Assembly (NCBI GenBank): GCA_020161015.1
Contig: JAIUOT010000014.1
Coordinates: 124,001 to 188,000 of the forward strand
From: Actinomycetota bacterium
Lineage (GTDB): Bacteria; Actinomycetota; Actinomycetes; Propionibacteriales; Propionibacteriaceae
Direction of reading: 5' to 3'
DNA: 64,000 nucleotides
Positions within the stretch are counted from its first letter, which is position 1. Each line of letters opens with the position of its first letter. The notes beneath the pieces were generated by a model, which saw only the letters and a list, made by a program, of their open reading frames with translations, was not told the origin of the DNA and made no database searches. Position numbers and translations under genes: made by a program. This document shows positions 24,556 to 43,042 of this stretch, one piece after another.

Positions 24556-24580
24556 ATCGGCGTTGCGCCAGGAGGACCGG

Positions 24581-25351
24581 ATGTACGCAGAGGAACGGCA
24601 CCGCACCATCGTGAACCTGGCCCTGCGCTACGACCGGGTCTCGGTCGCCGACCTCGCCTCACGGTTCGACGTCACCACCGAGACGATCCGCCGCGACCTC
24701 GACGCCCTCGACAAGCGCGGGATCCTGCGCCGGGTGCACGGCGGTGCGGTCGTGGCGGAGAACGTGGCGCTCGTCGAGACCGCGCTGACCGAGCGGGAGC
24801 CCGCCTTCGTCGCCCAGAAGACCCGGATCGCAGAGGTGGCGCTGGAGTACCTGCCGCCGGCGGGTTCCACGGTGATCTTCGACGCAGGCACGACGATCGC
24901 CCGCCTCGCCGCCACCATCCCCCCCGGCGCGGTGAGCACCGTGGTGACGAACTCCGTCCCCGTCGCCGCCCAGCTCGCGGCCGGCAACGGCGGCACCCAG
25001 GTGCACCTGCTCGGCGGCCGCGTCCGCGGGATCACCCAGGCGACCGTCGGCGGCGAGGCGGTGGCCGCTCTCGGCCGCCTGCGCTGCGACGTGGCCTTCG
25101 TCGGCACCAACGGCGTCAGCGCCCGCCACGGTTTCTCGACCCCCGACCCCGACGAGGCGGCGGTCAAGGAGGCGATGGTCGCCGCGGCGCGGCGGGTCAT
25201 CGTGCTCGCGGACAGTTCCAAGATCGGCGTCGAGCTGCTGGTCACCTTCGCCCCCCTCTCCGCCGTCGACGTGCTGATCACGGACGCCGGCATCTCGCCC
25301 CACGATCGCGCCGAGCTCGCCGGCGCGGGAATCGAGGTCGTGATCGCATGA
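24581..25351 (+). CDS. fruR: DeoR-family fructose operon regulator
   Basis: 256 residues from ATG 24581, preceded by AGGAGG. The DeoR helix-turn-helix (VSVADLASRFDVTTETIRRDLDALDKRGILRRVHGGAV) is at residues about 18-55. The C-terminal sugar-phosphate sensor domain has the DAGTT and GTNGVS segments; the effector is probably fructose 1-phosphate. It is the first gene of the fruR-fruK-fruA operon and overlaps fruK by 4 bases (ATGA). Confidence 0.88.
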   Translation: MYAEERHRTIVNLALRYDRVSVADLASRFDVTTETIRRDLDALDKRGILRRVHGGAVVAENVALVETALTEREPAFVAQKTRIAEVALEYLPPAGSTVIFDAGTTIARLAATIPPGAVSTVVTNSVPVAAQLAAGNGGTQVHLLGGRVRGITQATVGGEAVAALGRLRCDVAFVGTNGVSARHGFSTPDPDEAAVKEAMVAAARRVIVLADSSKIGVELLVTFAPLSAVDVLITDAGISPHDRAELAGAGIEVVIA

Positions 25352-26307: not shown

Positions 26308-26350
26308 CCGTCCGCCCACCGCACCCACACCCGCACAGAAGAGGAACACC

Positions 26351-29944: not shown

Positions 29945-29973
29945 TTGCCATGCCCCGCGCGGTGTGCCAGACT
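29945..29973 (+). promoter_or_regulatory. Probable promoter of the srl-type PTS operon
   Basis: TTGCCA (29945-29950) and CAGACT (29968-29973) are spaced 17 nt. Transcription would start near 29980, just before the operator-like repeats at 29983-30020. Confidence 0.4.
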
Positions 29974-29982
29974 CCTCATCGC

Positions 29983-30020
29983 GTGCACATATTCCCGCAT
30001 TCATGTGCACCGATGTGCAA
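29983..30020. promoter_or_regulatory. Operator of the srl-type operon (TGCAC-N4-GTGCA)
   Basis: TGCAC-CGAT-GTGCA at 30006-30019 has the same architecture as two sites at 37217 and 37317. In addition GTGCACAT (29983-29990) is the exact reverse complement of ATGTGCAC (30003-30010), making a second overlapping dyad. The site lies downstream of the predicted promoter, so a bound SorC-type regulator could repress. The regulator assignment is inferred. Confidence 0.65.
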
Positions 30021-30043
30021 ACACCAGTACAAAGGAGTTACTG

Positions 30044-30124
30044 ATGGTTTCGTTCCTGCTCGCGGCATCGAGCCCGAGCTTCGTTGCGTCCGCGGCGGCG
30101 CTGAGCCTGGGGGGTGAGCGGTAG
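30044..30124 (+). CDS. 26-aa small ORF preceding srlA
   Basis: ATG 30044 follows a textbook AAAGGAG (30031-30037). The ORF encodes 26 mostly hydrophobic residues (MVSFLLAASSPSFVASAAAL, then SLGGER). Its TAG overlaps the GTG start of srlA by one base (TAGTG), and srlA has no other good ribosome-binding site. It therefore either feeds ribosomes into srlA or encodes a small membrane peptide. The strong ribosome-binding site and the exact junction argue that it is translated. No family is recognised. Confidence 0.6.
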   Translation: MVSFLLAASSPSFVASAAALSLGGER

Positions 30125-30726
30125 TGGATCAGATCGCATGGTTCGCCGAGCATTTCATCGGATTGTTCAATGAGTCGGCGAAGAGCCTGCTCGGCCTGAT
30201 CACCGGCATCCTGCCGACCCTGTTGGTGCTGCTGACCGCCATGTACGCGATCACCACCTGGATCGGTGAGGAGCGCGTGACGCGTGCGGTGAAGTGGGCC
30301 GGCAAGTACTCCGTGACCCGTTACACGATCATGCCGATCATCGCGGTGATCATCCTGACCAACCCGATGGCCTACACCTTCGGCCGGTTCCTCCCGGAGA
30401 AGTACAAGCCCGCGTTCTACGACGCCGCGGTGTCCTTCGTCCACCCGGTGACGGCCTTCTTCCCGCACGCCAATGCCGGTGAGCTCTTCGTCTGGACCGG
30501 CGTCTCCGCCGGCGTGCTGAAGATCGCCCCCGAGTCCTACGCCCGCCTCGCGGTGCTGTACTTCCTCGTCGGCATCATCGTCATCCTCATGCGCGGCATC
30601 CTCACGCAGTGGATCACGCGCCTGCTCATCAACCGTGGTGGCCACCAGGAGACCTTCAAGCGCTTCGACGAGATGTACGAGGCCGGCCAGATCCAGGGTG
30701 CCAAGACCGAGGGGAGCGTGCTGTGA
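30124..30726 (+). CDS. srlA: Glucitol/sorbitol-type PTS EIIC component
   Basis: 200 residues (SrlA of E. coli has 187). The segments TGILPTLLVLLTAMYAITTWIGEERV and YTIMPIIAVIILTNPMAYTFGRFLPEKYKPAFYDA are diagnostic for the Gut family IIC half. About four to five membrane helices are seen. It forms the translocation channel together with the membrane part of SrlE. The GTG start overlaps the preceding small ORF, and the end overlaps srlE. The real substrate may be a polyol other than sorbitol, because no SrlD is present. Confidence 0.9.
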   Translation: MDQIAWFAEHFIGLFNESAKSLLGLITGILPTLLVLLTAMYAITTWIGEERVTRAVKWAGKYSVTRYTIMPIIAVIILTNPMAYTFGRFLPEKYKPAFYDAAVSFVHPVTAFFPHANAGELFVWTGVSAGVLKIAPESYARLAVLYFLVGIIVILMRGILTQWITRLLINRGGHQETFKRFDEMYEAGQIQGAKTEGSVL

Positions 30727-31727
30727 GCTACCAGGCTGTCAAGATCGTCAAGGGCCGCGGCGGCTGGGGCAGTGGCCTCACCCTCAAGCCCACGGAGACG
30801 AAGAACGTCGTGCTCTCGGTCACCGGCGGCGGGATCCATCCCGTGGCCGCCCGGATCGCGGAGCTCAGTGGCGCGGAGGCCGTGGACGGCTTCGTGAACA
30901 ACATCGCCGACGACCGCGTGCTCTGCGCCGTCATCAACTGCGGTGGCACCGCCCGCATCGGGGTCTACCCGAAGAAGCGGATCCCCACGGTCGACATCTA
31001 CCCGGGTGAGCCGGGTGGCCCGCTGGCCCAGTTCATCACCGACGACATCTTCGTCTCCGCGGTGACGCCGAACGAGGTCAGCCTCGCCGAGGCCGGCGCC
31101 GTTGCGATCGGCCACGAGCCGGCCGGCGGGATCACCGCCGCGGCCGCGACGGCAGCTGTCGAGCAGGGGATGGCGCCCAAGGCGGCCGTCCAGGCCACCG
31201 GCTTCATGGGCTTCGTGGTGAAGTTCGGGAACGCGATCGGCTACCTGATCAACACCCTGCTGTCCTCGGGTCGCCAGGCGGTCAAGCTGACGCTGAACAC
31301 GATCATCCCCTTCATGGCGTACGTGTCGCTGCTCATCGGCATCGTCACCTACACCGGCCTGTCGCAGTGGATCGCGAACGCGGTCACCCCGCTGGCGGGC
31401 AACGTGTTCGGCCTGATCCTGCTCGGCGTGATCGTCGGCCTGCCGTTCCTGTCGCCGATCCTCGGCCCCGGTGCCGCGATCGCCCAGGTGATCGGCGTGC
31501 TCATGGGCACCCAGATCGCGGCCGGGTCACTGCCGGTGCAGTACTCGCTGCCGACGCTCTTCGCGATCAACGGCCAGGTCGGCTGTGACTTCGTCCCCGT
31601 CGGCCTGTCCCTGGGCGAGTCGGAACCCGAGACGGTGGCCGTGGGCGTGCCCGCGGTGCTGTTCTCCCGGCAGATCACCTCGCCGGTCGCGGTGATCATC
31701 GCCTACTTCGCCTCCTTCCTCATCTAG
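30723..31727 (+). CDS. srlE: Glucitol/sorbitol-type PTS EIIB-IIC2 component
   Basis: 334 residues. The N-terminal IIB part has the phosphorylatable Cys73 in AVINCGGTARIGVYPKKRIPTVDIYP, and the C-terminal half has membrane helices with GLPFLSPILGPGAAIAQVIG and the signature INGQVGCDFVPVGLSLGE. It phosphorylates the incoming polyol during transport. The GTG start overlaps the srlA stop (GTGA). A strong hairpin lies in the 65-nt gap before srlB. Confidence 0.92.
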   Translation: MSYQAVKIVKGRGGWGSGLTLKPTETKNVVLSVTGGGIHPVAARIAELSGAEAVDGFVNNIADDRVLCAVINCGGTARIGVYPKKRIPTVDIYPGEPGGPLAQFITDDIFVSAVTPNEVSLAEAGAVAIGHEPAGGITAAAATAAVEQGMAPKAAVQATGFMGFVVKFGNAIGYLINTLLSSGRQAVKLTLNTIIPFMAYVSLLIGIVTYTGLSQWIANAVTPLAGNVFGLILLGVIVGLPFLSPILGPGAAIAQVIGVLMGTQIAAGSLPVQYSLPTLFAINGQVGCDFVPVGLSLGESEPETVAVGVPAVLFSRQITSPVAVIIAYFASFLI

Positions 31728-31736
31728 CCCGCCCTT

Positions 31737-31772
31737 GGTGCCCTGGCGGGTTCCCCCGCCCGCCAGGGCACC
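31737..31772 (+). terminator. Intercistronic hairpin between srlE and srlB
   Basis: GGTGCCCTGGCGGG (31737-31750) pairs perfectly with 31759-31772 across an 8-nt loop. No U-tract follows. Because srlB continues the operon, this may be a partial terminator or an mRNA-stability element. Confidence 0.65.
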
Positions 31773-31792
31773 GCACGAAAGGACCCGACTCC

Positions 31793-32170
31793 ATGACCCA
31801 GGTCGTCTGGCAATCCTCCGTCGTCCTCATCGGCAAGGACGCCCAGGAACTCTTCGAAGCCGGAGTGTTCATCTTCTTCGCCCAGCCCGTCCCCGATGCG
31901 CTCGCCGAGGTCAGCCTGATCCACACCGGGCCCGACGCAGAGTTCCAGCCCATCGAGCCCGGCGACGAGCTGTGGATCGGTGACAGCCGGGTCGTGATCG
32001 AGGAGGTGGGCTCGATGGCCAACGACAACTTCCGCCAGCTGGGCCACATCGTCATCTACCTCAACGTCGGCGACCAGGAGCTCCTGCCAGGGGCCGTGAA
32101 GGCATCCGGCGACATCCCGGTGCCCGCCGTCGGCGACACCCTCACCATCCATCGCACCACGGAGGCCTGA
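31793..32170 (+). CDS. srlB: Glucitol/sorbitol-type PTS EIIA component
   Basis: 125 residues (E. coli SrlB has 123). His44 in SLIHTGPDAEF aligns with the phospho-histidine of SrlB. The conserved GDELWIGDSRVVIEEVGSMANDNFRQLGHIVIYLN core is present. It carries phosphate from HPr to SrlE. ATG 31793 follows GAAAGGA. It is part of the srlA-srlE-srlB-gutM-oxidoreductase operon. Confidence 0.9.
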   Translation: MTQVVWQSSVVLIGKDAQELFEAGVFIFFAQPVPDALAEVSLIHTGPDAEFQPIEPGDELWIGDSRVVIEEVGSMANDNFRQLGHIVIYLNVGDQELLPGAVKASGDIPVPAVGDTLTIHRTTEA

Positions 32171-32173
32171 ACC

Positions 32174-32617
32174 ATGGGCTGGCAATTCGCTGCGATCCTG
32201 ATCGGCGCGCTCCTGGCGAGCATCGCCTTGTCGCTGTGGCAGCACAGCAGGTACATGAAGGTCGTCAACGAGATGGCCCGCGCGAACGCCGGCCGCCGGC
32301 TCCGGCTGGTCAGTGGCCGCGCCAAGGGGCGCCTGCGCGGCGCCGTCGTCGTCCTGCTGGTGGACCCCGCGGCCGGTGAGGTCGTGGAGGCCCGCGCCAT
32401 GGTCGGCTCCACCATCTTCGCCCGGCTGCGCCCCGCGCCCGAGCTGGCCGGACCGGTCAGCGACGTGGTCGCACGCGCCGGCGACGACAAGCAGTTGCGG
32501 GCCGCCGTCGAGAGCGCGCTCGGCATGCTTCCCGAGCGTTCCGGCGAGGCCCGGGCGCCCCAGACCTCCCCGGCGGGCCGCATCCGGATCCCGCGGGCCC
32601 AGAGCAGTACCCACTGA
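32174..32617 (+). CDS. gutM: GutM-family glucitol operon activator-like protein
   Basis: 147 residues. An N-terminal membrane helix (FAAILIGALLASIALSLWQ) is followed by GRAKGRLRGAVVVLLVDPAAGEVVEARAMVGSTIFARLRP, the core of the GutM/SrlM family. E. coli GutM activates glucitol genes together with the repressor SrlR. No SrlR is present here, so it may work with a SorC regulator. It lacks a recognisable DNA-binding domain and is membrane-anchored, so a direct DNA-binding role is doubtful. Confidence 0.8.
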   Translation: MGWQFAAILIGALLASIALSLWQHSRYMKVVNEMARANAGRRLRLVSGRAKGRLRGAVVVLLVDPAAGEVVEARAMVGSTIFARLRPAPELAGPVSDVVARAGDDKQLRAAVESALGMLPERSGEARAPQTSPAGRIRIPRAQSSTH

Positions 32618-32641
32618 AAGAGATATCGAGAGGAAGATGAG

Positions 32642-33937
32642 ATGAGTTACACCCAGCGGCTCCTCGAGCGGCAGGAGAAGGTCGGGCACCCGGTTCGCGT
32701 CGGTGTCGTCGGTGCCGGGCAGATGGGCAGCGGCCTGATCGCGCAGATCGAGCGGGCCAGGGGCATGCAGGTCGCCGCCGTCGCCGACATCGCCGTCGAG
32801 CGTGGGGTGGAGGCGCTCACCAAGGCCGGACGGACCGACGTCGTCGTCGAGACCGACCTGGCCAGGGCCGCAGAGCTCGTCGCCGCGGGTACTCCCGTCG
32901 TGATCAACGACGGCCTGCTGATGCCCAAGCTGCCCGTCGACATCGTCCTCGAGGTCTCCGGTGTTCCCGAGATCGCCGCCCAGATCGCCTACGCCTCGCT
33001 CCTGGGCAAGAAGGACGTCGCCCTGATGACGGTGGAGGCGGACGTGACCGTCGGCCTGCTGCTGTCGAGCGTGGCCAACGCCGGGAACCAGGTGTACACG
33101 ATCTGCCGCGGTGACGAGCCGGTGGAGTGCCTGAAGCTCGTCGAGTACGCCGAGGACCTCGGCCTCACCGTCGTGGCCGCAGGCAAGGGCAAGAACAACC
33201 CCAACCGCCCCACCGACGTCCCCGAGGACGTCATGGAGGAGGCGAAGGCCAAGAACATGAACCCCCGCATGCTGTGCGAGTTCACCGACGGCACCAAGAC
33301 CCAGCTGGAGATGTGCGCGCTGTCGAACGCCACCGGCATCCCGGTCGACGTCGCGAGCATGCACGGCCCGTCCTGCACCATCGACGAACTGGCGACCAAG
33401 CTGATCCCGGTCGCCGACGGCGGCATCCTGAACCGCACGCCCGCGGTGGAGTACACCGTCGAGGGCGACGTGGCTCCCGGCATCTTCGTCGTGGTCCGCT
33501 CCGAGGACCCCGTGGTCACCCACGAGCTCGACTACCTGAAGTTCGGCACCGGCCCGTACTACGCGGTGTACCGCCCCCACCACCTGGCCTCCATCGAGGC
33601 GCACTTGTCGATCAGCGAGGCCGTGCTCGACCGTCGCGCCGACTTCCAGACCAAGACCTGGCGCTCGGAGGTGACCGCCAAGACCAAGTTCCCGCTGAAG
33701 GCCGGCATCACCCTCGAGGGCATGGGCGGCCACCACGTCCGCGGCTGGACGGTGGACGCGGAGGAGGCCCGCAGCCTCAACGCCATCCCGATCGGCCTGG
33801 TCGCCGGCTGCCGCCTCACGCGTGACCTCCCCGCCGACGCGATCCTCACCTACGACGACGTCGAGATCGACGAGACCCGTCCGCTGGTCGCCATGCGGCG
33901 CCTGCAGGACGCGCTGATCGCCTCGCACGTGATCTGA
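32642..33937 (+). CDS. NAD(P)-dependent oxidoreductase with Rossmann and SAF-type domains
   Basis: 431 residues. The Rossmann motif VGVVGAGQMGSGLIAQI is at residues 20-36, and a homoserine-dehydrogenase-like middle (VNDGLLMPKLPVDIVLEVSGVPEIAAQ-type region) follows. The C-terminus (EARSLNAIPIGLVAGCRLTRDLPADAILTYDDVEI) is SAF-like. Members are often annotated as homoserine dehydrogenase or FlgA-like but lie in carbohydrate clusters. Here it replaces SrlD as the only dehydrogenase of the PTS operon, so it may oxidise or rearrange the imported polyol phosphate. Its exact reaction is unknown to me. Shine-Dalgarno GAGAGGAAG precedes ATG 32642. Confidence 0.7.
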   Translation: MSYTQRLLERQEKVGHPVRVGVVGAGQMGSGLIAQIERARGMQVAAVADIAVERGVEALTKAGRTDVVVETDLARAAELVAAGTPVVINDGLLMPKLPVDIVLEVSGVPEIAAQIAYASLLGKKDVALMTVEADVTVGLLLSSVANAGNQVYTICRGDEPVECLKLVEYAEDLGLTVVAAGKGKNNPNRPTDVPEDVMEEAKAKNMNPRMLCEFTDGTKTQLEMCALSNATGIPVDVASMHGPSCTIDELATKLIPVADGGILNRTPAVEYTVEGDVAPGIFVVVRSEDPVVTHELDYLKFGTGPYYAVYRPHHLASIEAHLSISEAVLDRRADFQTKTWRSEVTAKTKFPLKAGITLEGMGGHHVRGWTVDAEEARSLNAIPIGLVAGCRLTRDLPADAILTYDDVEIDETRPLVAMRRLQDALIASHVI

Positions 33938-33951
33938 GCCGGGGCGAAGAC

Positions 33952-34021
33952 GTCGCCTGCCCGTCGCGCGAGCGAGGGAGCGGACAGGCGACCGGGGCCC
34001 TCCCCGGGGGGAGGGCCCCGG
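33952..34021 (+). terminator. Double hairpin terminator of the srl-type operon
   Basis: GTCGCCTG (33952-33959) pairs with 33985-33992. Immediately after, GGGGCCCTCCCC (33994-34005) pairs with 34008-34019 and is followed by GGCTTTCCC. It separates the PTS operon from the SorC gene. Confidence 0.75.
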
Positions 34022-34120
34022 CTTTCCCAGCCGCCACCGGGGCCGGCGGCTATCCTTTTCCGCAGCGGGCGGGCCCGGGGCCCCGGCAGGAGCAGCCCGC
34101 CTGAGGAGGAGGACCACACC

Positions 34121-35083
34121 ATGCCCGCCCCCCGACCCCAGGACGTCCTGGTGCGGGCTGCACGGCTGTACTACCTCCAGGACAAGTCACAGGGCGAGGT
34201 CGCCAAGGAACTCGGCCTCTCCCGCTCCAGCATCTCCCGCATCCTCGCCGCCGCACGCGAGCAGGGTGTGGTCGAGGTGCGGATCCACGACCCGAGCGCG
34301 CTGGCCCGCGTCCCCGAGCTCGGGGACGCGCTCTGCCAGGCGTTCGCCATCACCTCGGCCGTGGTCGTCCCGCGCCGTCGGGGCGAGTCGCCGGTGGACG
34401 TGGTCGGCCAGGCGGCCGCCCGGCTCTTCGAGGAGCGCGTCACCGGCCTGTCCTCCGTGGCACTGAGCTGGGGCAACACCGTCGACCGGTTCGTTGAGCA
34501 CGTCGAGCTCGAGCCGATCAGCCGCGGGCTGGTGATCTGCCCGCTGGTCGGCGGTCTCCCGTCGGACGCGGGACCGGCCGGCAACACCTCGCTGGAGGTG
34601 CTGGCCGGCAAGTGCGGGGCGAAGTCCTACCGCTTCGAGTCGCCGGCCGTGGTCGAGTCGCGCCAGACCTGGGCCGCGATGAACCACGAGTCGACCATCG
34701 TCCGGGCCATCGAGCGGGCCGCGGAGGTGGAGGTCGCGTTCGTCGGCATCGGCTCCTACGGCGTCCACAACTCCCGGCGCGTCGTGCAGGCCATGCAGCT
34801 GTCGGAGGAGGAGGCGGCGCAGCTCGCCGGCCAGGCACCGGCCGGGGACATCTGCGGCCGCTACTACGACCTCCAGGGCAGGCCGGTCGGGCTTCCGACC
34901 TCCGAGCGGGTGATCGGCATCACGCTCGACCAGCTGCGCGGCGTCCCCGAGGTGATCGGCCTCGCCGGCGGCGTGGAGAAGGCGCCCGGCGTGATCGGTG
35001 CCCTGCGCACCGGCGCGCTCGACAGCGTGGTCGTCGACGAGGACCTGGCGCGCGCCGTGCTGAACCTCGCCGGCGCGGAGTGA
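34121..35083 (+). CDS. SorC/DeoR-type sugar-binding transcriptional regulator (first copy)
   Basis: 320 residues. The N-terminal helix-turn-helix RAARLYYLQDKSQGEVAKELGLSRSSISRILAAAREQGVVEVRIHDP is typical of the SorC family. The C-terminal effector domain has SVALSWGNTV and FVGIGSYG, where a phosphorylated sugar normally binds. Good ribosome-binding site GAGGAGGA. It lies directly after the PTS operon and tail-to-tail with the YjbQ-aldolase-TIM operon. It is the likely reader of the TGCAY-N4-RTGCA sites; DNA target inferred. Confidence 0.88.
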   Translation: MPAPRPQDVLVRAARLYYLQDKSQGEVAKELGLSRSSISRILAAAREQGVVEVRIHDPSALARVPELGDALCQAFAITSAVVVPRRRGESPVDVVGQAAARLFEERVTGLSSVALSWGNTVDRFVEHVELEPISRGLVICPLVGGLPSDAGPAGNTSLEVLAGKCGAKSYRFESPAVVESRQTWAAMNHESTIVRAIERAAEVEVAFVGIGSYGVHNSRRVVQAMQLSEEEAAQLAGQAPAGDICGRYYDLQGRPVGLPTSERVIGITLDQLRGVPEVIGLAGGVEKAPGVIGALRTGALDSVVVDEDLARAVLNLAGAE

Positions 35084-35089
35084 TGCGGG

Positions 35090-35620
35090 CTACTCGCCCA
35101 TCACCACGATCTGGCAACGCCGCGGACGCGGCCGGGTGCGGTCGAAATCGACGAAGTACACATACCCTGTGACGCCGACGGCGAGCGCGCCGTCGGCGAC
35201 GGCGAACACCTGGCTGGAGCCGAGCAGCGTCGCCTTCAGGTGCGCCTCGGCATTCAGCAGCTGCGTCCTGTCGCCACCGGGGAGGTAGGCCTCCGCGTCC
35301 GGCCAGGAGGCCACGTCCGCGTAGTGCTCGGGGCCGGGGTAGCGGTACTCACCCGCCGGCGGCACCGCTGTCTGGTCCGGGAAGAGGGTGGCCAGGGCGT
35401 CGTCGAGGTCTGCCTGCAGGAACTCCCTGCCGTCGGCCAGCCGGTCGTGCACGTACTCCTCGAAGAACACCGCGCACGTGGTGTGCGGCGAGATCACCGT
35501 GCAGGTGCCGGTGGTGATGCCGCTCGCGGCGACGGCCGACCTCACCGCGGGGGTGACGTCGAGGTAGGTGGGCGTCCCGCCGTGGGACATCAGGGAGACG
35601 GTCTCGAGGTGGACGGTCAT
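35090..35620 (-). CDS. YjbQ/UPF0047 family protein
   Basis: 176 residues. The family motifs SPHTTCAVFFEEYVHDR and NAEAHLKATLLGSSQ are intact, as is the late GYVYFVDFDRTRPR. YjbQ proteins have secondary thiamine-phosphate synthase activity in vitro, but they recur in carbohydrate catabolic operons, where a different role is likely. Here it is the last gene of an operon with the class II aldolase and TIM-like gene, lying only 16 nt after the aldolase stop. Exact function uncertain. Confidence 0.8.
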   Translation of the reverse strand: MTVHLETVSLMSHGGTPTYLDVTPAVRSAVAASGITTGTCTVISPHTTCAVFFEEYVHDRLADGREFLQADLDDALATLFPDQTAVPPAGEYRYPGPEHYADVASWPDAEAYLPGGDRTQLLNAEAHLKATLLGSSQVFAVADGALAVGVTGYVYFVDFDRTRPRPRRCQIVVMGE

Positions 35621-35636
35621 CGGGTGCTCCTCGGGA

Positions 35637-36485
35637 TCAGGCCTGGCCGGCCAGCGTGCGGATGAACCTCGCCACGTCGGCCTCGACGGCGCGGGTGGAG
35701 GCGGCGGCGACCTTCGGGAACAGGATCGTCGCGGGATCGGACGCCGCCTCGCGGGCGGCGTCGAGGGCGACCTTGGCCGCATAGGTGTAGTAGTTGATCT
35801 TGCGGACGCCGTGGGCGATGCAGGCGCGGTACTCCTGCGCGGTGAGCCCGGACCCGCCGTGCATCACCAACGGGACGCCGGTCGCGTCGCAGAGCCGGTC
35901 GATGAGCGGGTAGTTGATCTCCGGCTCGCGGTGGTACACCCCGTGCACGGTGCCGAAGGACGCGGCCAGCGCGGTCACGCCGGTGCGGGCCACGAACTCG
36001 CGGGCCTGCGCGGGATCGGTGTAGAGGTCGGCGTCGGCGACGCCCTGGGAGGGGTCGCCGTTCTCGTTGCCAGTCATCACGCCGAGCTCGCCCTCGACCC
36101 CGACGCCGCGCTCCCGCGCCAGCGCCACGACGGCGGCGGTGCGGGCGACGTTCTCCTCGAAGGGCAGCAGGGAGCCGTCGATCATGGCGGAGTTGAAGCC
36201 CACCTCCAGGCCGCGGGCGATGTAGTCGATGTCCTCGCCGTGGTCGATGTGCAGCACGAAGGGTGCCTCGCTGCGCGCGGCCAGCGCGACCATCGCGGGG
36301 CCGATGTCCTCGATGGACATCACGTTCTCGTGCACCTGCGCGTGCTGGAGGATGACCGGCACCCCGGTGGCCTCCGCGGCGTCGATCGTCGCCACCAGGC
36401 CCTCGAAGAAGGGGGTGTTCACCGCCGCGATGGCGATGCCGTGCGTGCGTGCGTAGTCGAGGGCCTCGCCCAAGCCGATGATCAT
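35637..36485 (-). CDS. Class II (zinc) ketose-bisphosphate-type aldolase
   Basis: 282 residues. Metal ligands are visible as His82 in HIDHGED, His181 in GTVHGVYH and His209 in MHGGSGL. Asp81 is the usual catalytic acid/base. The phosphate-binding C-terminal motif is KINYYTY instead of the common NIDTD, suggesting an unusual substrate. The ATG at 36485 has TAGGAG upstream. It probably cleaves the phosphorylated ketose made from the imported polyol, giving DHAP and an aldehyde or a related pair. Substrate is inferred from context only. Confidence 0.82.
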   Translation of the reverse strand: MIIGLGEALDYARTHGIAIAAVNTPFFEGLVATIDAAEATGVPVILQHAQVHENVMSIEDIGPAMVALAARSEAPFVLHIDHGEDIDYIARGLEVGFNSAMIDGSLLPFEENVARTAAVVALARERGVGVEGELGVMTGNENGDPSQGVADADLYTDPAQAREFVARTGVTALAASFGTVHGVYHREPEINYPLIDRLCDATGVPLVMHGGSGLTAQEYRACIAHGVRKINYYTYAAKVALDAAREAASDPATILFPKVAAASTRAVEADVARFIRTLAGQA

Positions 36486-36493
36486 GTGCGCTC

Positions 36494-37198
36494 CTACCGG
36501 TTGCCGCGGGTTGCCTGGAAGCCCTTGAGGGCGGTGAACATGTCCTCGAGCACCACGCGCCAGTCCGGGGCGGCGATGATGCCGCTGGTCCCGCCGGAGC
36601 CGTCCGCGCCCTGCTCGAGCACGCGGGTGATGTCGGCGCCGGAGGTGACGCCGGCGGCCTGGATCACGAGGATCGAGGGGTCGATCTGCTTCACCGCGCG
36701 GGTGGTTCGTGCGATGTAGTCGCCGGTGTCCATCGATCCCGTGCCGATGTTGGCGGTCGGCTCGCAGATCATCACCTTCGGCTCGAGCTGGGCGACGGCC
36801 CGGCACTGGCGCTCGGAATCGGCGCACACGATGGTCATCAGGCCCAGCTCGTCCGCGCGGCGCATGGTCGCGTCCAGCTCGGCGAGGGTCATCGGGTGCT
36901 CGGCGTGGTTCAGCACGACCGCCGACGCGCCGGCCTCGGCCAGCGCCTCGGGCAGGGTGTGGCCCATGCCCCGGCCCGGGGTGATCGGGTCCATGTGCTG
37001 GGCCGTCACGGTGAGGTGGGTCGTGCGACGCGCGATCTCGACCAGGTAGGCGTGCTGCGAGGTGAAGATCACGTCGATGTCGAACTGGCCGGCGAGTTCG
37101 TCGGTGAGCAGGGCGAGGCGCAGGGTATCGGCGCCGCCGAGGTAGGCCTTGGGGTTGACGATCAGGAACGGGGTCCGCAGTTTCGGTGCGGTGAGCAT
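36494..37198 (-). CDS. Triosephosphate-isomerase-like protein (archaeal/tetrose type)
   Basis: 234 residues, shorter than standard bacterial TIM (about 250). The catalytic triad is recognisable: Lys17 in VNPKAYLGG, His98 in VVLNHAEHP and Glu146 in ICEPTANIGTG. The pattern GMGHTLPEALAEAGASAVVLNHAEHP follows archaeal TIM rather than the housekeeping enzyme. Similar paralogues isomerise erythrulose phosphates in erythritol and threitol pathways. It is first in the operon, 8 nt before the aldolase, and a TGCAC-N4-GTGCA site lies 19 nt upstream of its start. Confidence 0.8.
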   Translation of the reverse strand: MLTAPKLRTPFLIVNPKAYLGGADTLRLALLTDELAGQFDIDVIFTSQHAYLVEIARRTTHLTVTAQHMDPITPGRGMGHTLPEALAEAGASAVVLNHAEHPMTLAELDATMRRADELGLMTIVCADSERQCRAVAQLEPKVMICEPTANIGTGSMDTGDYIARTTRAVKQIDPSILVIQAAGVTSGADITRVLEQGADGSGGTSGIIAAPDWRVVLEDMFTALKGFQATRGNR

Positions 37199-37216
37199 GG
37201 CGCCCTCTCCTCAATC

Positions 37217-37230
37217 TGCACAATGGTGCA
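37217..37230. promoter_or_regulatory. Operator-like dyad TGCAC-N4-GTGCA upstream of the TIM-aldolase operon
   Basis: TGCAC-AATG-GTGCA begins 19 nt upstream of the TIM-like start codon (37198). It lies between an AT-rich promoter region and the GAGGAGAG ribosome-binding site. It matches the sites at 30006 and 37317. Confidence 0.6.
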
Positions 37231-37316
37231 TTAAAGTGTGAACGAATGTGCGTATTAAGTATGTCAGGCGGATGGGCGGGTTGGCAACGCATCTCACCGC
37301 CGATCTGGGCTCATCG

Positions 37317-37330
37317 TGCATGAATATGCA
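37317..37330. promoter_or_regulatory. Operator-like dyad TGCAT-N4-ATGCA upstream of the E1a gene
   Basis: TGCAT-GAAT-ATGCA lies 41 nt upstream of the predicted -10 box of the dehydrogenase operon and is followed by AAACA, as is the 30006 site (AAACAC). An upstream position suits activation. Confidence 0.6.
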
Positions 37331-37370
37331 AACATGGCCCTGAAGTGTGGTAGTTCTTGCGCGATCAACG

Positions 37371-37376
37371 TACGAT
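37371..37376 (+). promoter_or_regulatory. -10 box (TACGAT) for leaderless E1a mRNA
   Basis: TACGAT ends 7 nt before ATG 37384. No good -35 is seen, consistent with activator dependence. Confidence 0.45.
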
Positions 37377-37383
37377 GACACGC

Positions 37384-38382
37384 ATGACTGTGGCGTCAGA
37401 GACAACGCGGGCCACCGCCGTCCTCACCGACATGTGGCGGATCCGGCTCTTCGAGGAGGCCGTCGAGGACCTCTACGGAAGGGGCATGATGCACGGCACC
37501 ATGCACCTGTCGATCGGGCAGGAGGCGGTGCCGGTGGGCGCGAGCCTGTGCCTCGAGGACGGGGACGTGATCACCTGCACGCACCGCGGTCACGGCCACA
37601 CCATCGCCCGGGGTGCCGACCTCGGCCGCATGATGGCCGAGCTGCTCGGCCGTGAGAACGGCTACTGCAAGGGCCGCGGCGGCTCCATGCACATCGCCGA
37701 CGTGGCGACCGGGAACCTGGGCGCCAACGGCATCGTCGCGGGCGGCCTGCCGATCGCGGCCGGCGCCGCGCTGTCGCAGAAGATGCGCGGTACCGACCGG
37801 GTGACGCTGTGCGTCCACGGCGACGGTGCGGTCGGCGAGGGCGCCTGGCACGAGGCCATGGTGCTGGCGTCCATGTGGGACCTTCCGGTGGTGTTCCTGT
37901 GCGAGAACAACCAGTACGGCATGTCGCTGCCCAGCCTGGCCGCCTACCGGGTGGAGAAGCTCAGCGACAAGGCCGCCGGCTACGGGATGCCGGGCGAGAC
38001 GGTCGACGGCAACGACGTGGACGCTGTGGCCGCTGCGGTCGGCCGCGCCGTGGAGCGCGCGCGGGCCGGGCAGGGCCCCAGCTTCGTCGACGCGGTGACC
38101 TACCGCTGGCGCGGGCACTCCAAGTCGGACAAGAACCTCTATCGCAGCAAGGACGAGATCGCCGAGTGGCGGGACAAGGACCCCATCGCGCGCTACTCGG
38201 GCCAGGTGCTCGAGGCGGGCGTCCTCACGGCCGCAGACCTCGACGCGATCCAGGCCGCCGTCCGCCAGGAGATCAGGGACGCGGTCGTGTTCGGCACCAG
38301 GGGCGCCGAGCCGACCGTCGAGTCGATGCTGGCCGGCGTGTACGCGCCGGTCGACGAGCAGGGTGCGGAGGACCGGGCATGA
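37384..38382 (+). CDS. 2-oxoacid (pyruvate/acetoin-type) dehydrogenase E1 alpha subunit
   Basis: 332 residues. The thiamine-diphosphate motif runs from [14 protein letters not shown] to NN in [12 protein letters not shown]. The heterotetrameric-E1 features [10 protein letters not shown] and the phosphorylation-loop-like [20 protein letters not shown] are present. Size and style suit pyruvate, acetoin or 2-oxobutyrate dehydrogenases. ATG 37384 is chosen because the -10 box lies 7 nt upstream; codons at 37357 or 37375 would lie upstream of or inside it. It overlaps the E1b gene (ATGA). Confidence 0.88.
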
Positions 38383-39371
38383 GCGAGATGCGCACGATGA
38401 CGTACGCGGAGGCCGTCCGCGAGGCGATGGCGATCGCGATGGAGGCCGACGAGCGCGTCTTCCTGATGGGTGAGGACGTCGGGATCTACGGCGGCGCCTT
38501 CGGCGTCGAGAACGACCTCTACGAGCGCTTCGGCACCGAGCGGGTGCGCGACACGACGATCTCGGAGCTGGGCATCGTCGGCATGGGCGTCGGCGCGGCG
38601 CTCACCGGCATGCGTCCCATCGTCGAGATCCAGTTCTCCGACTTCACCGCCCAGGCGATGGACCAGATCGTCAACCAGGCGGCCAAGATCCACTTCATGG
38701 TCGGCGGGCAGGCCAGTGTCCCGCTGGTGATCCGCGCGCCCGGGGGCTCGGGCACCGGTGCCGCCGCCCAGCACAGCCAGTCGCTGGAGGCCTGGTTCGC
38801 GCACGTCCCCGGCCTGAAGGTCGTGATGCCGTCCAACGCCACGGACGCCGGCGCGCTGCTGCTGGCCGCGCTGGAGGACCCCAACCCGGTGATCGTGCTG
38901 GAGCACAAGCTGCTCTACAAGCAGAGCTTCGCGGTGCCGGCGACGTTCCCCAAGGCGCGCCTGGGCGAGGGACGCATCGAGCGCGAGGGCAGCGACCTGA
39001 CCATCGTGGCCACCTCCGTCGAGGTGCAGCGCTCGCTCGAGGCCGCCGAGCAACTGGCCGCCCAGGGCATCAGCGCGGAGGTGATCGACCCGCGGACGAT
39101 CCGTCCGCTGGACACCGAGCTGATCCTGTCGTCGGTGGAGAAGACCGGACGGGTGCTGCTGGTGCAGGAAGCCGTGAAGTTCGGCGGGTTCATGTCGGAG
39201 GTGTCGGCCACGATCACCGAGTCGCGCGCGTTCGGTGCCCTCCAGGCGCCCGTGCGGCGCCTCTGCGGCCTCGACACCCCGATCCCGTACAACCCCAAGC
39301 TGGAGCGGGCCAGCGTGCCGCAGGTGGACGACATCGTGCGCGAGGCCGCCGCGCTCGTGCGGGAGTGGTGA
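38379..39371 (+). CDS. 2-oxoacid dehydrogenase E1 beta subunit
   Basis: 330 residues. The N-terminal PYR domain ([33 protein letters not shown]) contributes the TPP-activating Glu, and GARF-type [22 protein letters not shown] is well conserved. The C-terminal transketolase domain ([15 protein letters not shown]) is intact. It is coupled to the E1a gene by a 4-base overlap, and the E2 gene follows after 3 nt. Confidence 0.9.
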
Positions 39372-39374
39372 CCC

Positions 39375-40628
39375 ATGCCCAGGGTTCCGCTGAACATGCC
39401 GAAGATGTCGATGACGATGGAGTTCGGCACCGTCGTGGAGTGGCTCGCCGAGGTCGGCGGGACGGTGAAGAACGGTGACGCGATCGTCGTCGTGACCACG
39501 GACAAGGTGGACATGGAGGTCGAGGCGACCTTCGACGGCGTCCTGGAGGAGATCGTGGCGCCCGAGGGCGCGCAGATCCCGGTCGGACAGCCGATGGCCT
39601 ACCTGCAGACCGAGGCCGAGGACCTGCTGGGCGACCTCTTCGACGCCCCCGCGGCGCCGCCGACCGAGGCGCCCGCCGTCCCCGCCGCGCCAGGTCCGGA
39701 GGTGGAGGCCGCGTCGCCCGCCGGCGGATCGGCCGACGTCCGCGCCGTCCCGCTGGCCCGCCGGATCGCCGCGGAGGCGCACATCGACCTGCGCCAGGTG
39801 GCGCCGACCGGGCCCGCGCGCACCATCCGCGCCCGTGATGTCCGCGAGGCGATCGAGCGCGCTCAGCAGCCCGCGGCCGCGCCGTCCGTCCCCGCCGTCC
39901 CGGCCCCCGTCACGCGGGTCGCCCCGGTGGCGACCGCTCCGGTGGTGCCCGCCGGCGGCGCGCTGCTCGGCGACGACCGCACCCGACGCATCCGCGTGGC
40001 CACGGCCAACGTGATGGCGGCGAGCGCTGCCGTGCCCCAGTTCACGGTCTTCCGGGCCCTCGACCTCGGGCGGCTGGCCCGCGCACGGGAGGTCTCGCTG
40101 AAGGGCGTCAGCTGGACGTCCATCCTGGTGCGTGCCTACGCGCTGGTGCTGCGAGAGTTCCCGCAGCTCAACGGCTTCTGGGTGGGCAACGGCGTGCAGG
40201 CCAACCAGGCGGTGGGCGTCGCGCTGGCCGTGGACACCCCGCGGGGCCTGCTGGCCCCCGTCCTGGCCGACCCCGACCGGGTCACGCTGCGCGAGTTGGA
40301 CCGGCGCATCCGCGAGATCGCGGAGGCCATCAAGCGGGGGGAGACCGACCCCGCCCTGTTCTCCGGGGGGACAGGGACCGTCTCCAACCTCGGCGGAATG
40401 GGGATCGACCGCTTCAACGCCCTGCTCACCCCGCCGCAGGCCACCGCACTGTCGCTCGGCGCCGTCGGGCGGCGCCCGGTCGTCGACGCCGACGGGGAGC
40501 TCGCGGTCCAGATGGCGTGCGAGGCGGGCCTCACCGTCGACCACCGTGTCGCCGACGGCGCGGACGCGGCGCGGGCACTGGACGCGATGCAGGCCTTCCT
40601 CGCCGATCCCTTGCTGCTCCTGGCGTAG
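39375..40628 (+). CDS. 2-oxoacid dehydrogenase E2 (dihydrolipoamide acyltransferase)
   Basis: 417 residues. One lipoyl domain has Lys44 in TTDKVDME. A Pro/Ala linker leads to the peripheral-subunit-binding domain (AVPLARRIAAEAHIDLRQVAPTGPA, residues about 125-155), followed by a second linker. The catalytic acyltransferase domain has the HRxxDG-type motif DHRVADG with His390 and Asp394. No E3 gene is nearby, so a shared lipoamide dehydrogenase must serve. It completes a small E1a-E1b-E2 operon that probably converts a product of the upstream pathway to an acyl-CoA. Confidence 0.9.
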   Translation: MPRVPLNMPKMSMTMEFGTVVEWLAEVGGTVKNGDAIVVVTTDKVDMEVEATFDGVLEEIVAPEGAQIPVGQPMAYLQTEAEDLLGDLFDAPAAPPTEAPAVPAAPGPEVEAASPAGGSADVRAVPLARRIAAEAHIDLRQVAPTGPARTIRARDVREAIERAQQPAAAPSVPAVPAPVTRVAPVATAPVVPAGGALLGDDRTRRIRVATANVMAASAAVPQFTVFRALDLGRLARAREVSLKGVSWTSILVRAYALVLREFPQLNGFWVGNGVQANQAVGVALAVDTPRGLLAPVLADPDRVTLRELDRRIREIAEAIKRGETDPALFSGGTGTVSNLGGMGIDRFNALLTPPQATALSLGAVGRRPVVDADGELAVQMACEAGLTVDHRVADGADAARALDAMQAFLADPLLLLA

Positions 40629-40741
40629 CCGTGGCGCGGACCGTGCCGTCGCCCGGCCTTCGCTGCTGCGCCGGGCCCACAGGGGCTCCGGCGGCGGCTA
40701 GGCTGGCTGGCCGGGCCGCGGGAAGGGGGTGAGGGACGCCG

Positions 40742-41737
40742 ATGCCGTCCACCCGTTCGCTCGACGTGCTGATCGCCGCCGCCCGTCTGTACTACGAAGA
40801 AGGACGCTCCCAGCGTGCCGTCGCACAGGCGCTGGGCCTGTCGGAATCCTCGGTGTCGCGGACGCTCGCCGCGGCCCGGGACGCCGGCGTGGTGCGGATC
40901 CTCATCCACGACCCCCGCAACGAGGTCGACCGGGTGCCGCGCCTGGAGGCGCGGCTGAAGCGCGCCTTCGGGCTGACGGCGGCCTGGGTCGGCACCGGGG
41001 CCGTCGGCCTGGAGCCGTCGCAGGTGGTGGCGAAGCTCGGCGCCCAGCTGTTCGCCGACAGCCTATGGTCGATGCGCAGGGTCGGCCTCAGCTGGGGCAC
41101 GACGATCGGCCTGCTGGTCGAGGCGATCCAGCCGCGGAGCGCGTCCCCCGACCTCGAGCTCCTGCCCCTGGTCGGTGGCATGTCCGCCCTCGACACCGCG
41201 CCGTCGGGCACCACCGCACTGTCGATGCTGGGGCAGAAGCTCGGCGTCCGCGCCCGGCGGATCGACGCGCCGGCGATCGTGGAGTCCCCGGAGACCTGCG
41301 CGGCGATCCTGCGCGAGTCCAGCGTGCGCCACGCGCTCGACCTGGCCACCACCGTGGACACCGCCTGGGCCGGCATCGGGTGTGTCGGCGTCCCCGGCGG
41401 CAGCAGCGAGCAGCTGCTCGCCGCCATGCACCTGGCGCCCGAGGAGGTGCAGCACGTCCGCGACGCCGATCCGGCGGGCGACTTCTGCGGGCGATTCCTC
41501 GACGACCGGGGCATGCCGCTGCGCGGGCCCACGGCCAGCCGCGTGATCGGGGTCGACTTCGACGACCTGCGCCGGATCCCGACCGTGGTGGGCCTGGCCG
41601 GTGGCGTCGGCAAGGCGCGCGGGGTGCTCGCCGCCCTGCGCTCCGGGGTGATCGACATCGCCGTGCTGGACGCGGAACTCGCCGTCGAGGTGCTCCACCG
41701 CCACGCCGGGGAGGGCCGCACCGCGCGCGCCCGCTGA
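40742..41737 (+). CDS. SorC-family transcriptional regulator (second copy)
   Basis: 331 residues, similar in layout to the regulator at 34121. Helix-turn-helix AAARLYYEEGRSQRAVAQALGLSESSVSRTLAAARDAGVVRILIHDP and effector domain (RRVGLSWGTTIG, WAGIGCVG, VVGLAGGVGKARGVLAALRSG) are complete. A TAGGCT box lies about 40 nt upstream with GAAGGGGG as ribosome-binding site. It closes the dehydrogenase operon region. Two SorC paralogues flanking one gene set suggest separate control of uptake and dehydrogenase, or competition at shared sites. Confidence 0.87.
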   Translation: MPSTRSLDVLIAAARLYYEEGRSQRAVAQALGLSESSVSRTLAAARDAGVVRILIHDPRNEVDRVPRLEARLKRAFGLTAAWVGTGAVGLEPSQVVAKLGAQLFADSLWSMRRVGLSWGTTIGLLVEAIQPRSASPDLELLPLVGGMSALDTAPSGTTALSMLGQKLGVRARRIDAPAIVESPETCAAILRESSVRHALDLATTVDTAWAGIGCVGVPGGSSEQLLAAMHLAPEEVQHVRDADPAGDFCGRFLDDRGMPLRGPTASRVIGVDFDDLRRIPTVVGLAGGVGKARGVLAALRSGVIDIAVLDAELAVEVLHRHAGEGRTARAR

Positions 41738-41813: not shown

Positions 41814-42575
41814 GTGTCCGAACCTGTGGTGGCCGTCGTCGTCGCCGCCGGCCTCGGCCGCCGCTTCGGCGGCACCAAGCCCAAGCCCACCCTGCGAATC
41901 CTCGGCCGCGCCGTGGTCGCGATGGCCGTCGAGGGCCTGGCCGCCGGCGGCTGCACCGATGCGGTCGTGGTGATCAACGGCAAGATCTCCCACCTGTTCA
42001 GGGCAGCACTGGTCGGCTCGCCGATCCCGGTGATCACCACCCCGGGCGGTGACACCCGCCAGCAGTCCGTCGCCAAGGGACTCGAGGTGGTCCGCAACGA
42101 CCCGCGGCTGTCGACGGCGAAGGTCATCCTCGTGCACGACGCGGTGCGCCCGATGATGCCCGCCTACGTGATCGAGAACGTGATCGACGCCGTGCGCAAC
42201 GGTGCGGTCGCCGTGGCGCCGGCCGTGCCGGTGACCGACAGCATCCGGCTGGTCGAGGACGGCGACGAGGGCGCGAACGCCGCGTTCGACCGGTCCCGGC
42301 TGAGGGCGATCCAGACACCCCAGGGCTTCGACCTCCAGGTACTGCTGGACAGCCACGACAAGATGGCCGCCCAGGCGATGGACTTCACCGACGACGTGAC
42401 CTGCTGCGAGCGCAACGGCCACAGCGTCACCCTCGTCCAGGGCTCGCGGATGGGCATGAAGATCACCGAGCCGGCCGACCTCACTGTCGCGCGTGCGCTG
42501 TGGCGGGTCCGGGCCAGTCTCGGGCACCACTCCGGACGCCGGTTCTGGCGGCAGTGGCGGCAGGAGCGCCCGTGA
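41814..42575 (+). CDS. ispD: 2-C-methyl-D-erythritol 4-phosphate cytidylyltransferase
   Basis: 253 residues. It activates methylerythritol phosphate with CTP in non-mevalonate isoprenoid synthesis. The nucleotide-binding motif [17 protein letters not shown], the HDAVRPM motif ([13 protein letters not shown]) and VTDSIR are present. A late basic tail ([16 protein letters not shown]) is slightly longer than usual. It overlaps ispF by 4 bases. It now has its own promoter, whereas in relatives it usually follows carD. Confidence 0.93.
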
Positions 42576-43042
42576 CCCGGGTGGGGATCGGCACCGACGT
42601 CCACGCCTTCGCACCCGGCGTGCCGATGTGGGTGGCCGGCCTGCACTTCCCGGACGAGCCCGCCGGCCTCGCGGGCCACTCCGACGGCGACGTCGCCGCG
42701 CACGCCGCGTGCGACGCGCTGCTGTCGGCGTCCGGCCTGGGCGACATGGGCAGCAACTTCGGCACCAGCGAGCCCGAGTGGGCGGGTGCGAGCGGTGTCG
42801 CGTTCCTGGCCGAGACCGCGTCCCGGGTGCGCGCGGCCGGCTTCCGCATCGGCAACGTGGCCATCCAGGTGATCGGGAACCGTCCCCGGCTCGCGGCTCG
42901 GCGCGCCGAGGCCGAGGCTGTCCTCTCGGCCGCTCTCGGCGCGCCCGTGAGCGTGTCCGGGACGACCACGGACGGGCTCGGCCTCACCGGCCGCGGCGAG
43001 GGTCTCGCCGCTGTCGCGACGGCCCTGGTCAGCGCGGACTGA
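42572..43042 (+). CDS. ispF: 2-C-methyl-D-erythritol 2,4-cyclodiphosphate synthase
   Basis: 156 residues, standard length. The zinc ligands Asp9, His11 (GTDVHAF) and His44 ([15 protein letters not shown]) are present. The C-terminal [17 protein letters not shown] motif is intact. It is translationally coupled to ispD (GTGA) and catalyses the next-but-one step of the same pathway. It is convergent with the metallopeptidase gene with only 18 nt between. Confidence 0.94.

Follow-up and report, generated by a model that had tools for sequence, protein, structure and literature searches.

What does a glucitol-type phosphotransferase system (PTS) import when it is encoded not with a sorbitol-6-phosphate dehydrogenase but with an enzyme of the DXR-II (DRL) family, whose members interconvert 1-deoxyxylulose 5-phosphate (DXP) and 2-C-methylerythritol 4-phosphate (MEP)? 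The question is raised by a gene cluster in a 64,000-nucleotide stretch of DNA, here called the window, from contig JAIUOT010000014.1 of a Propionibacteriaceae bacterium (assembly GCA_020161015.1, positions 124,001 to 188,000), whose draft genome comprises 3.67 Mb in 65 contigs. Gene identities, conserved residues, co-occurrence and a shared palindrome were computed, and from them we infer a substrate, the reaction directions, two exits and an operator function. It appears probable that the cluster would serve the catabolism of 2-C-methyl-D-erythritol (ME), through MEP and DXP, to acetyl-CoA and glyceraldehyde 3-phosphate.

In this scheme ME would be taken up and phosphorylated by the PTS, giving MEP. 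The DXR-II-type enzyme, running in reverse of its isoprenoid role, would convert MEP to DXP and yield NAD(P)H, and a lipoyl E1/E2 complex, with an E3 from elsewhere, would cut DXP between C2 and C3 and pass the acetyl group to CoA, producing acetyl-CoA, glyceraldehyde 3-phosphate and NADH. Perhaps there is a second exit, in which a triose-phosphate isomerase (TIM)-like protein, YjbQ and an aldolase would move the ketone of DXP from C2 to C4 in two shifts and cleave the resulting 5-deoxypentulose 1-phosphate into dihydroxyacetone phosphate and acetaldehyde. SorC-family regulators would hold the three transcription units under one palindromic operator.

A sequence-only reading of this DNA had proposed an undescribed PTS-linked route in which a polyol phosphate is oxidised and isomerised and a lipoyl dehydrogenase complex acts last. 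We judge that outline to be right, and all the genes it listed lie where it had placed them. The genes of the cluster are as follows.

30124..30726, plus strand: glucitol-type PTS EIIC (PF03608, 233 bits; NF049923 above cut-off)
30723..31727, plus strand: glucitol-type PTS EIIBC, its GTG start overlapping EIIC (PF03612, PF07663; NF049924 above cut-off)
31793..32170, plus strand: glucitol-type PTS EIIA (PF03829, 84.5 bits)
32174..32617, plus strand: GutM-like membrane protein (PF06923, 51.8 bits)
32642..33937, plus strand: DRL, DXR-II-type oxidoreductase, proposed to convert MEP to DXP (PF21135; 3UPY/3UPL matches; K182, K184, T220, H241, R311)
34121..35083, plus strand: SorC-family regulator 1 (PF04198, 172.8 bits)
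35090..35620, minus strand: YjbQ (UPF0047), putative optional exit module (PF01894, 82.1 bits)
35637..36485, minus strand: class II aldolase, putative optional exit module (PF01116, 253.7 bits; nearest PDB chain 6ofu, YdjI aldolase)
36494..37198, minus strand: archaeal-type TIM paralogue, putative optional exit module (NF003302, 171.6 bits, cut-off 132)
37357..38382, plus strand: E1 alpha (E1a) of the proposed DXP-cleaving complex (PF00676, 284.8 bits; H46, T48 and K256 family-specific)
38379..39371, plus strand: E1 beta (E1b) (NF006667, 376 bits)
39375..40628, plus strand: E2, lipoyl acyltransferase (TIGR01349, 238 bits, under its cut-off of 445)
40742..41737, plus strand: SorC-family regulator 2 (NF053881, 137.8 bits, and NF011947, 88.7 bits, both under cut-offs)

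The start of E1a is listed as TTG, and an ATG further in is also possible. No E3 gene lies within the cluster; several related loci do carry one. The cluster is bounded by carD and a HAD gene on one side and by ispD-ispF on the other, and the carD and ispD-ispF flanks also enclose it in the relatives L009, L011, L012, L130 and L131 (loci are numbered L, genomes G).

The oxidoreductase is a DXR-II-type enzyme

The product of the fifth gene matches DRL_cat (PF21135) with 199.8 bits against a cut-off of 27, and its only strong matches in the PDB are 3UPY and 3UPL (9e-89 to 1e-88), which are Brucella DRL structures. It had been described as a Rossmann/SAF oxidoreductase; the oxidoreductase part of that description stands, and no SAF match was reported at E<=0.001. 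Residues K182, K184, T220, H241 and R311 align with K191, K193, T229, H250 and R320 of the Brucella protein, whose numbering is used below, and all five are kept. According to PMC3847144, T229 and H250 belong to a set of sites by which DXR-II is told apart from two look-alike groups, the inhibitor is bound by K191 and K193, R320 is placed at the dimer cavity, and complementation worked for 11 DXR-II proteins and failed for four look-alikes. Judged by these residues the window oxidoreductase is a DXR-II-type enzyme, predicted to act between MEP and DXP. This points to a branched five-carbon polyol as the substrate, and not to the erythritol, xylitol or arabitol suggested before.

DRL_cat was found in six of 60 related genomes, five of them with the DXR-II signature (T229 and H250 both present); the sixth (G022, locus L013) lacks the signature, and its stretch contains no PTS. 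Among the matches listed, the nearest named relatives by DRL identity are Micropruina and Acidipropionibacterium. In all 37 signature rows, including three beside ispD/ispF, the second strand ends in an acidic residue, where Brucella DRL reads S-A-R-R; such a residue usually signals NAD. The NAD or NADP motif was considered as evidence of reaction direction and rejected, since the ispD/ispF-linked DRLs have the same residue.

A set of DRL-like Poribacterial proteins and one from Gemmatimonadetes (L033, L036-L039, L041, L051, L054) have R and A at K191 and T229 and keep H250 and R320. They may form a further DRL subgroup.

DRL is linked to a glucitol-type PTS

From a scan of bacterial genomes with a DRL alignment, the best 80 of 125 confirmed loci make up the set, and 23 of these carry the signature. 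Within this set, 18 of the 23 signature loci have a glucitol PTS no more than 9 kb away, against none of the 57 others (Fisher 9.5e-14). As for the five signature loci lacking it, three are neighbours of ispD and ispF, and the other two come from short contigs (L014 and L018, 10.3 and 4.7 kb). The simplest unit, comprising SorC, DRL, GutM, EIIC, EIIBC and EIIA, occurs in Listeria immobilis, L. farberi, Tetragenococcus, Alkalihalobacillus and Gilliamella. The linkage makes it most likely that the PTS delivers the substrate of DRL; if that substrate is MEP, the imported polyol would be 2-C-methylerythritol. In Salmonella a sorbitol PTS is reported to carry 2-C-methylerythritol (Testa, Cornish and Poulter 2004). 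The general PTS enzyme EI is encoded in the window's genome, so the cluster PTS can be energised. As had been noted beforehand, the PTS comes without a sorbitol-6-phosphate dehydrogenase: no protein of 30124-41737 matched the short-chain dehydrogenases.

The E1/E2 complex and its tie to DRL

An orthologue of the cluster's E1b was found in nine of the 49 genomes searched (56-100% identity); every other genome stays at or below 49%, and further E1b copies inside the nine orthologue-bearing genomes reach 36-45%. DRL is present in eight of the nine. That the complex is an ordinary pyruvate or branched-chain dehydrogenase was considered and rejected, the genome having other E1 genes, with two further E1b matches at 42% and 41%. 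The E1b orthologue was also dropped as a strict DRL marker, since it occurs with no DRL nearby in G010, in Rhizobium SSA_523 and on a C. difficile plasmid. The close E1b orthologues inspected stand either with DRL or with a galactitol-type PTS.

The search was extended to 72,556 plasmid records, for which two listings covered 60 of 908 and 60 of 111 records. DRL lies within 10 kb in 33 and within 3 kb in 32 of the best 34 E1b places (at least 59% identity), these being the highest rows and the only ones position-matched to DRL, with several near-identical strains among them; the Fuscovulum row of the listing stands at 56.9%. One of 12 C. difficile and one of four Shinella records were inspected. 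The inspected records are mostly alphaproteobacterial, and those of Rhizobium, Sinorhizobium, Pseudoroseomonas and Aminobacter have E1a directly after DRL. Rhizobium N324 and Sinorhizobium meliloti Rm41 carry SorC, DRL, E1a, E1b, E2 and lpdA, to which Rm41 adds lipA, and Erysipelotrichia, Terrihalobacillus and Brachybacterium also combine DRL with E1/E2. In L131 the PTS-DRL genes, one SorC gene and E1/E2 fill the space from carD to ispD-ispF, with gaps of less than 0.4 kb. Two locus scores are to be read with their cause: L138 was scored E1-negative since the 9 kb cut leaves out its E1 genes, and the E1 flag of L084 comes from matches of 28-31% about 7 kb off, which are probably unrelated. The recurrence of the gene set in further genera and phyla, a check that had been named beforehand, goes beyond chance.

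The E1a of the window carries the motif HRGHGH; an annotated Thermus acoA reads STHRGHGH, and the window genome's own paralogue (L095) reads SYREHGV. HRGHG(H/Q) was seen in 12 of 17 linked E1a rows, the segment compared for the other five being a different one, and the unlinked E1a of L109, L116 and L141 also carry an HRGHG-type motif. In the E1b tree a branch with support 91/63 (92% of bootstraps) has the 17 linked sequences on one side and separates them from Thermus acoAB; some closeness among them is expected, as the rows were picked by search, and the only outside row from the genome of a linked row is L095. K256 of E1a is found in 16 of 17 linked rows, with arginine in the other, and in none of 26 other rows. 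By alignment mapping it falls in the loop that holds the His-Ser of human E1, residues which we take to be catalytic. The E1b part of this residue comparison omits L084 and L091, and at H46/T48 many of the other rows are gapped. The basic residues of the H46/T48/K256 region could, on this comparison, hold a phosphate.

DXP has the CH3-CO-CHOH group of acetoin, and the E1/E2 complex is on that ground proposed to cleave DXP as an acyloin. For the reverse direction, an E1 of this kind is known to be able to deal with DXP: mutants of E. coli aceE, which encodes the E1 of pyruvate dehydrogenase, permit DXP production in vivo, according to PMC3424233.

The Shinella plasmid (L141, 4012-15529) carries a related E1a-E1b pair with transaldolase, E2, E3, phosphatase, TIM barrel and triose-phosphate isomerase genes, and DRL was not found within that stretch. 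Perhaps it is a sister acyloin pathway.

A second module beside the complex

The archaeal-type TIM paralogue, named as such before, scores above the cut-off of its model, and a second, full-length TIM (304.6 bits) is encoded elsewhere in the genome; the cluster's protein is thus not the cell's sole TIM. The description of the aldolase as having a non-standard phosphate loop was only partly right: the GGSG and N-x-x-T motifs, presumably the phosphate motifs of class II aldolases, are by eye kept, and so are Asp and His residues that we take to be catalytic.

YjbQ, TIM-like protein and aldolase also occur together in eight loci (L010, L011, L012, L015, L016, L023, L130, L159), with or without E1/E2; of these, L159 is an operon of its own in Tetragenococcus, flanked by SorC, and the PTS-DRL genes of this host lie elsewhere, in L030. 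L009, L017 and L131 have only E1/E2, and L012, L016 and L023 only TIM/aldolase; genome-wide, no TIM-like protein is present in the hosts of L009, L017, L019, L022, L028 and L131. These one-module loci contradict a single linear route through E1/E2 plus aldolase, so the dehydrogenase complex probably does not act downstream of the aldolase, as had been assumed. Occurring separately, the two modules look like alternative exits from one intermediate, with TIM/aldolase/YjbQ as the optional and more speculative one and the part played by YjbQ a guess.

In G019 (L158, 2674-9833) the TIM-like and aldolase genes stand with a Dak1-Dak2 kinase, an Aldolase_II-SDR fusion, a cupin and an aldolase of the DeoC/LacD family that is LsrF-like by eye, a gene set hinting at another sugar phosphate pathway.

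Uptake genes vary around a constant core

The uptake genes vary around a constant core of DRL and E1/E2. Rhizobium N324 and S. meliloti Rm41 have a divergent ABC transporter and a sugar kinase (PfkB type in Rhizobium); Pseudoroseomonas has a glucitol PTS with its own EI, Paracoccus versutus a glucitol PTS with HPr-EI, and a Priestia plasmid a glucitol PTS, E1-E3, an MFS transporter, DRL and an FGGY kinase.

Loci from three phyla have E1/E2 without DRL in the stretch: L130 (G010, of the window's genus), L139 (Rhizobium SSA_523) and L140 (C. difficile plasmid). DRL is absent from the entire G010 genome. The PTS of these loci is galactitol-type, not glucitol-type: Pfam identifies EIIC-GAT in L130 and L139, and L140 is assigned by its similarity to L130. 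L015, L017 and L136 carry both types. On the simplest view, the galactitol-type PTS would import a compound giving DXP directly, for example 1-deoxy-D-xylulose, so that no DRL is needed.

On the C. difficile plasmid (L140, 2265-18583; 12 such records were listed) two glycoside hydrolase genes lie upstream of the E1/E2/E3 and galactitol-type PTS genes.

Isoprenoid genes in the same genomes

IspG and canonical DXR were searched in 21 genomes, those of the 23 signature loci minus L018 and L071. IspG is present in 13 and absent from eight, all of which have PTS-DRL; four of the eight are isolates (Brachybacterium phenoliresistens, two Listeria and Tetragenococcus) and four are metagenome-assembled genomes (L016, L019, L022, L029). 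In these eight genomes DRL cannot serve isoprenoid synthesis. A canonical DXR is encoded in seven of the 21 signature-locus genomes. The window's genome also encodes one besides DRL, which rules out DRL as its sole DXR and makes DRL redundant for biosynthesis. The expected contrast is provided by L025, L026 and L040, where DRL lies beside ispD/ispF with no PTS, in genomes with IspG and without DXR, as would be anticipated for a DRL in a biosynthetic role.

The position of the cluster between carD and ispDF was rejected as evidence of a link to the MEP pathway, because G010 keeps that position without DRL; the site may be a mere insertion point.

Candidate operators and neighbouring genes

Three copies of a palindrome precede the transcription units.

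30006..30019, plus strand: operator-like palindrome TGCACCGATGTGCA, before the PTS-DRL operon
37217..37230, plus strand: operator-like palindrome TGCACAATGGTGCA, TIM side of the divergent TIM/E1a promoter
37317..37330, plus strand: operator-like palindrome TGCATGAATATGCA, E1a side of the same promoter

The pattern TGCAYNNNNRTGCA has three matches in the 64 kb against 0.12 expected, and three were reached in none of 100 shuffles, although the pattern had been derived from these same promoters before counting, so that the count is not blind. L009, L010 and L011 also have it ahead of their PTS, and L010 has it between TIM and E1a as well; its other matches among 162 loci are copies of those stretches, or single ones in L015, L064, L085 and L139. 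Both SorC regulators match the same two models, NF053881 and NF011947. These proteins likely read the palindromes, which would then act as operators.

In Acidipropionibacterium thoenii (L015, 4385-4398) one copy of the palindrome lies shortly 5' of the genes for a galactitol-type PTS, whose GatB match runs from 3958 on the minus strand. An ATG frame of 26 codons at 30044-30124, whose TAG overlaps the GTG start of EIIC, may be a leader peptide or an alternative start of EIIC. Immediately 5' of carD is an ordinary fructose operon (24563-28411; DeoR regulator, 1-phosphofructokinase and fructose PTS), and at 41814-43042 lie the overlapping reading frames of ispD and ispF.

Weighing the proposal

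Several observations weigh against ME catabolism as proposed here. The DXR equilibrium favours MEP formation, so the step from MEP to DXP needs pulling. The E1b orthologue occurs in only eight of the 18 signature-DRL genomes among the 49 searched; in a ninth, G016, a contig break falls inside E1a. Listeria immobilis, Alkalihalobacillus, Mammaliicoccus and Gilliamella lack both the E1b orthologue and the TIM-like protein genome-wide, at the thresholds used. The TIM-like protein, found in 13 of the 49 genomes (E<=1e-10), is present in five with no detected DRL (G003, G010, G012, G019, G030) and is therefore not tied to DRL alone. Support for the clade of linked E1b is moderate, the acidic second-strand residue also occurs in biosynthetic-looking DRLs and is no proof of catabolic direction, and the way in which the palindrome pattern was derived counts on the same side. 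To these are added the deviant DRL sites and the extra enzymes described with the alternatives below.

One alternative, which we hold to be unlikely, is that another polyol (erythritol, threitol or a deoxypentitol) is imported, that DRL is a plain polyol-phosphate dehydrogenase, that the TIM-like protein and the aldolase act one after the other behind it, and that E1/E2 works on a later 2-oxoacid, which is the scheme of the sequence-only reading. According to PMC3847144 the wider DRL family has uncharacterised oxidoreductase branches, four of whose members failed dxr complementation, and the window DRL deviates at four named DXR-II sites, having A at G121, K at E174, Y at F178 and H at Y322. 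In the same source G121 is highly conserved, and E174, F178 and Y322 are possible dimer contacts, not catalytic. L012, L015 and L021 moreover carry a zinc alcohol dehydrogenase and a D-2-hydroxyacid dehydrogenase beside PTS-DRL. Against another polyol stand the five DXR-II-type residues from K191 to R320; the separate occurrence of E1/E2 and TIM/aldolase, which leaves no single linear chain; and the finding that, as far as genes in the E1/E2 loci were recognised, no 2-oxoacid-forming enzyme recurs.

Improbable, in our estimate, is that DRL does make DXP while E1/E2 uses some other acyloin or a DXP-derived 2-oxoacid, with DXP leaving by aldolase, transketolase or transaldolase. Transketolase or transaldolase-type genes lie beside PTS-DRL in L019, L022, L023 and L144, with both transaldolase/FSA-type and transketolase genes in L023 and L144, and FSA could split DXP into hydroxyacetone and glycolaldehyde phosphate; E1/E2 is also wholly absent from some PTS-DRL genomes. 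The dehydrogenases of L012, L015 and L021 and the enzymes of L023 and L144 suggest further exits, outside the proposed scheme. DXP as the substrate of E1/E2 is nevertheless favoured by L131, which holds just PTS-DRL, one SorC gene and E1/E2 between its flanks, by the placing of E1a immediately 3' of DRL in the Rhizobium, Sinorhizobium, Pseudoroseomonas and Aminobacter records, and by the loci without DRL, in which E1/E2 is kept beside a different PTS and so follows what both entries share.

Isoprenoid salvage or supply, in which the PTS would bring in ME (or a galactitol-type PTS deoxyxylulose) and MEP would pass to ispD/ispF with DRL as a backup DXR, is very improbable: the setting between carD and ispD-ispF in several Propionibacteriaceae loci, an ispD-like gene near PTS-DRL in L031/L032 and the biosynthetic look of L025, L026 and L040 speak for it, whereas eight PTS-DRL genomes lack IspG, the window genome has its own DXR, G010 has E1/E2 beside ispDF yet no DRL, and the dedicated E1/E2 complex is left without a role.

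Significance and comparison with known systems

Beyond the window, we lean, with slightly less assurance than for the cluster itself, towards a carbon-source pathway in Actinomycetota, Bacillota and Alphaproteobacteria that would reverse the committed step of isoprenoid synthesis and add a CoA-acetylating DXP dehydrogenase, DXR-II being catabolic in origin or in main use. Methylerythritol and deoxyxylulose are made by plants and bacteria, and ME catabolism would provide a sink for both. It would also represent a new enzyme activity, the acyloin-type cleavage of a phosphosugar. The link to a transcarboxylase cycle that had been suggested is unsupported, the predicted product being acetyl-CoA. 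If the proposal holds, it gives DXR-II a function where isoprenoids do not need it, a puzzle raised in PMC3847144, which reports DXR-II redundant with DXR-I in some genomes, and an active DXR-II in Finegoldia magna, where no other MEP or mevalonate genes were found. Both the redundancy and the occurrence in bacteria without the MEP pathway would be accounted for. It would also advise caution towards public-record labels on such genes (sorbitol PTS, homoserine dehydrogenase, pyruvate dehydrogenase) and towards assuming that DXR-II is an isoprenoid enzyme in every genome that carries it.

Among the titles and opening lines of abstracts listed from open-access full text, none described a catabolic pathway for methylerythritol or deoxyxylulose, subscription journals and preprints being outside that scope. 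What appears to be new is the pathway itself, the use of DXR-II in catabolism and the proposed DXP dehydrogenase; the families to which the enzymes belong are known. With Brucella DRL (3UPL/3UPY; PF21135) the window DRL shares the catalytic domain and K191, K193, T229, H250 and R320, but its gene is grouped with those of a PTS and of a dehydrogenase complex, and it has A121, K174, Y178 and H322. The Srl/Gut glucitol/sorbitol PTS has EIIC, EIIBC, EIIA and GutM in common with the cluster, which differs in having DRL in place of sorbitol-6-phosphate dehydrogenase, and SorC regulators. Acetoin dehydrogenase (AcoA/AcoB/AcoC/AcoL) has the same E1a/E1b/E2 architecture, the HRGHGH motif (in the annotated Thermus acoA) and, as proposed for the cluster, acyloin cleavage; in contrast, the cluster's E1b stands on a separate branch, its E1a has H46, T48 and K256, and its complex is linked to DRL and PTS, with a substrate proposed to be phosphorylated (DXP).

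Two further pathways bear comparison. The erythritol pathway of Brucella (EryA-EryI) presumably likewise uses a TIM-like isomerase on a polyol-derived phosphate under SorC-type regulation, with a kinase where the cluster has a PTS; DRL and E1/E2 are what sets the cluster apart. The degradation of phospho-AI-2 (LsrF/LsrG/LsrR) presumably likewise turns a 1-deoxy five-carbon sugar phosphate into a two-carbon unit on CoA and a three-carbon phosphate. LsrR is a SorC-type regulator, a likeness for which the weak NF011947 matches of both cluster SorC genes can be cited, and the enzymes and substrate of that route differ from those of the cluster.

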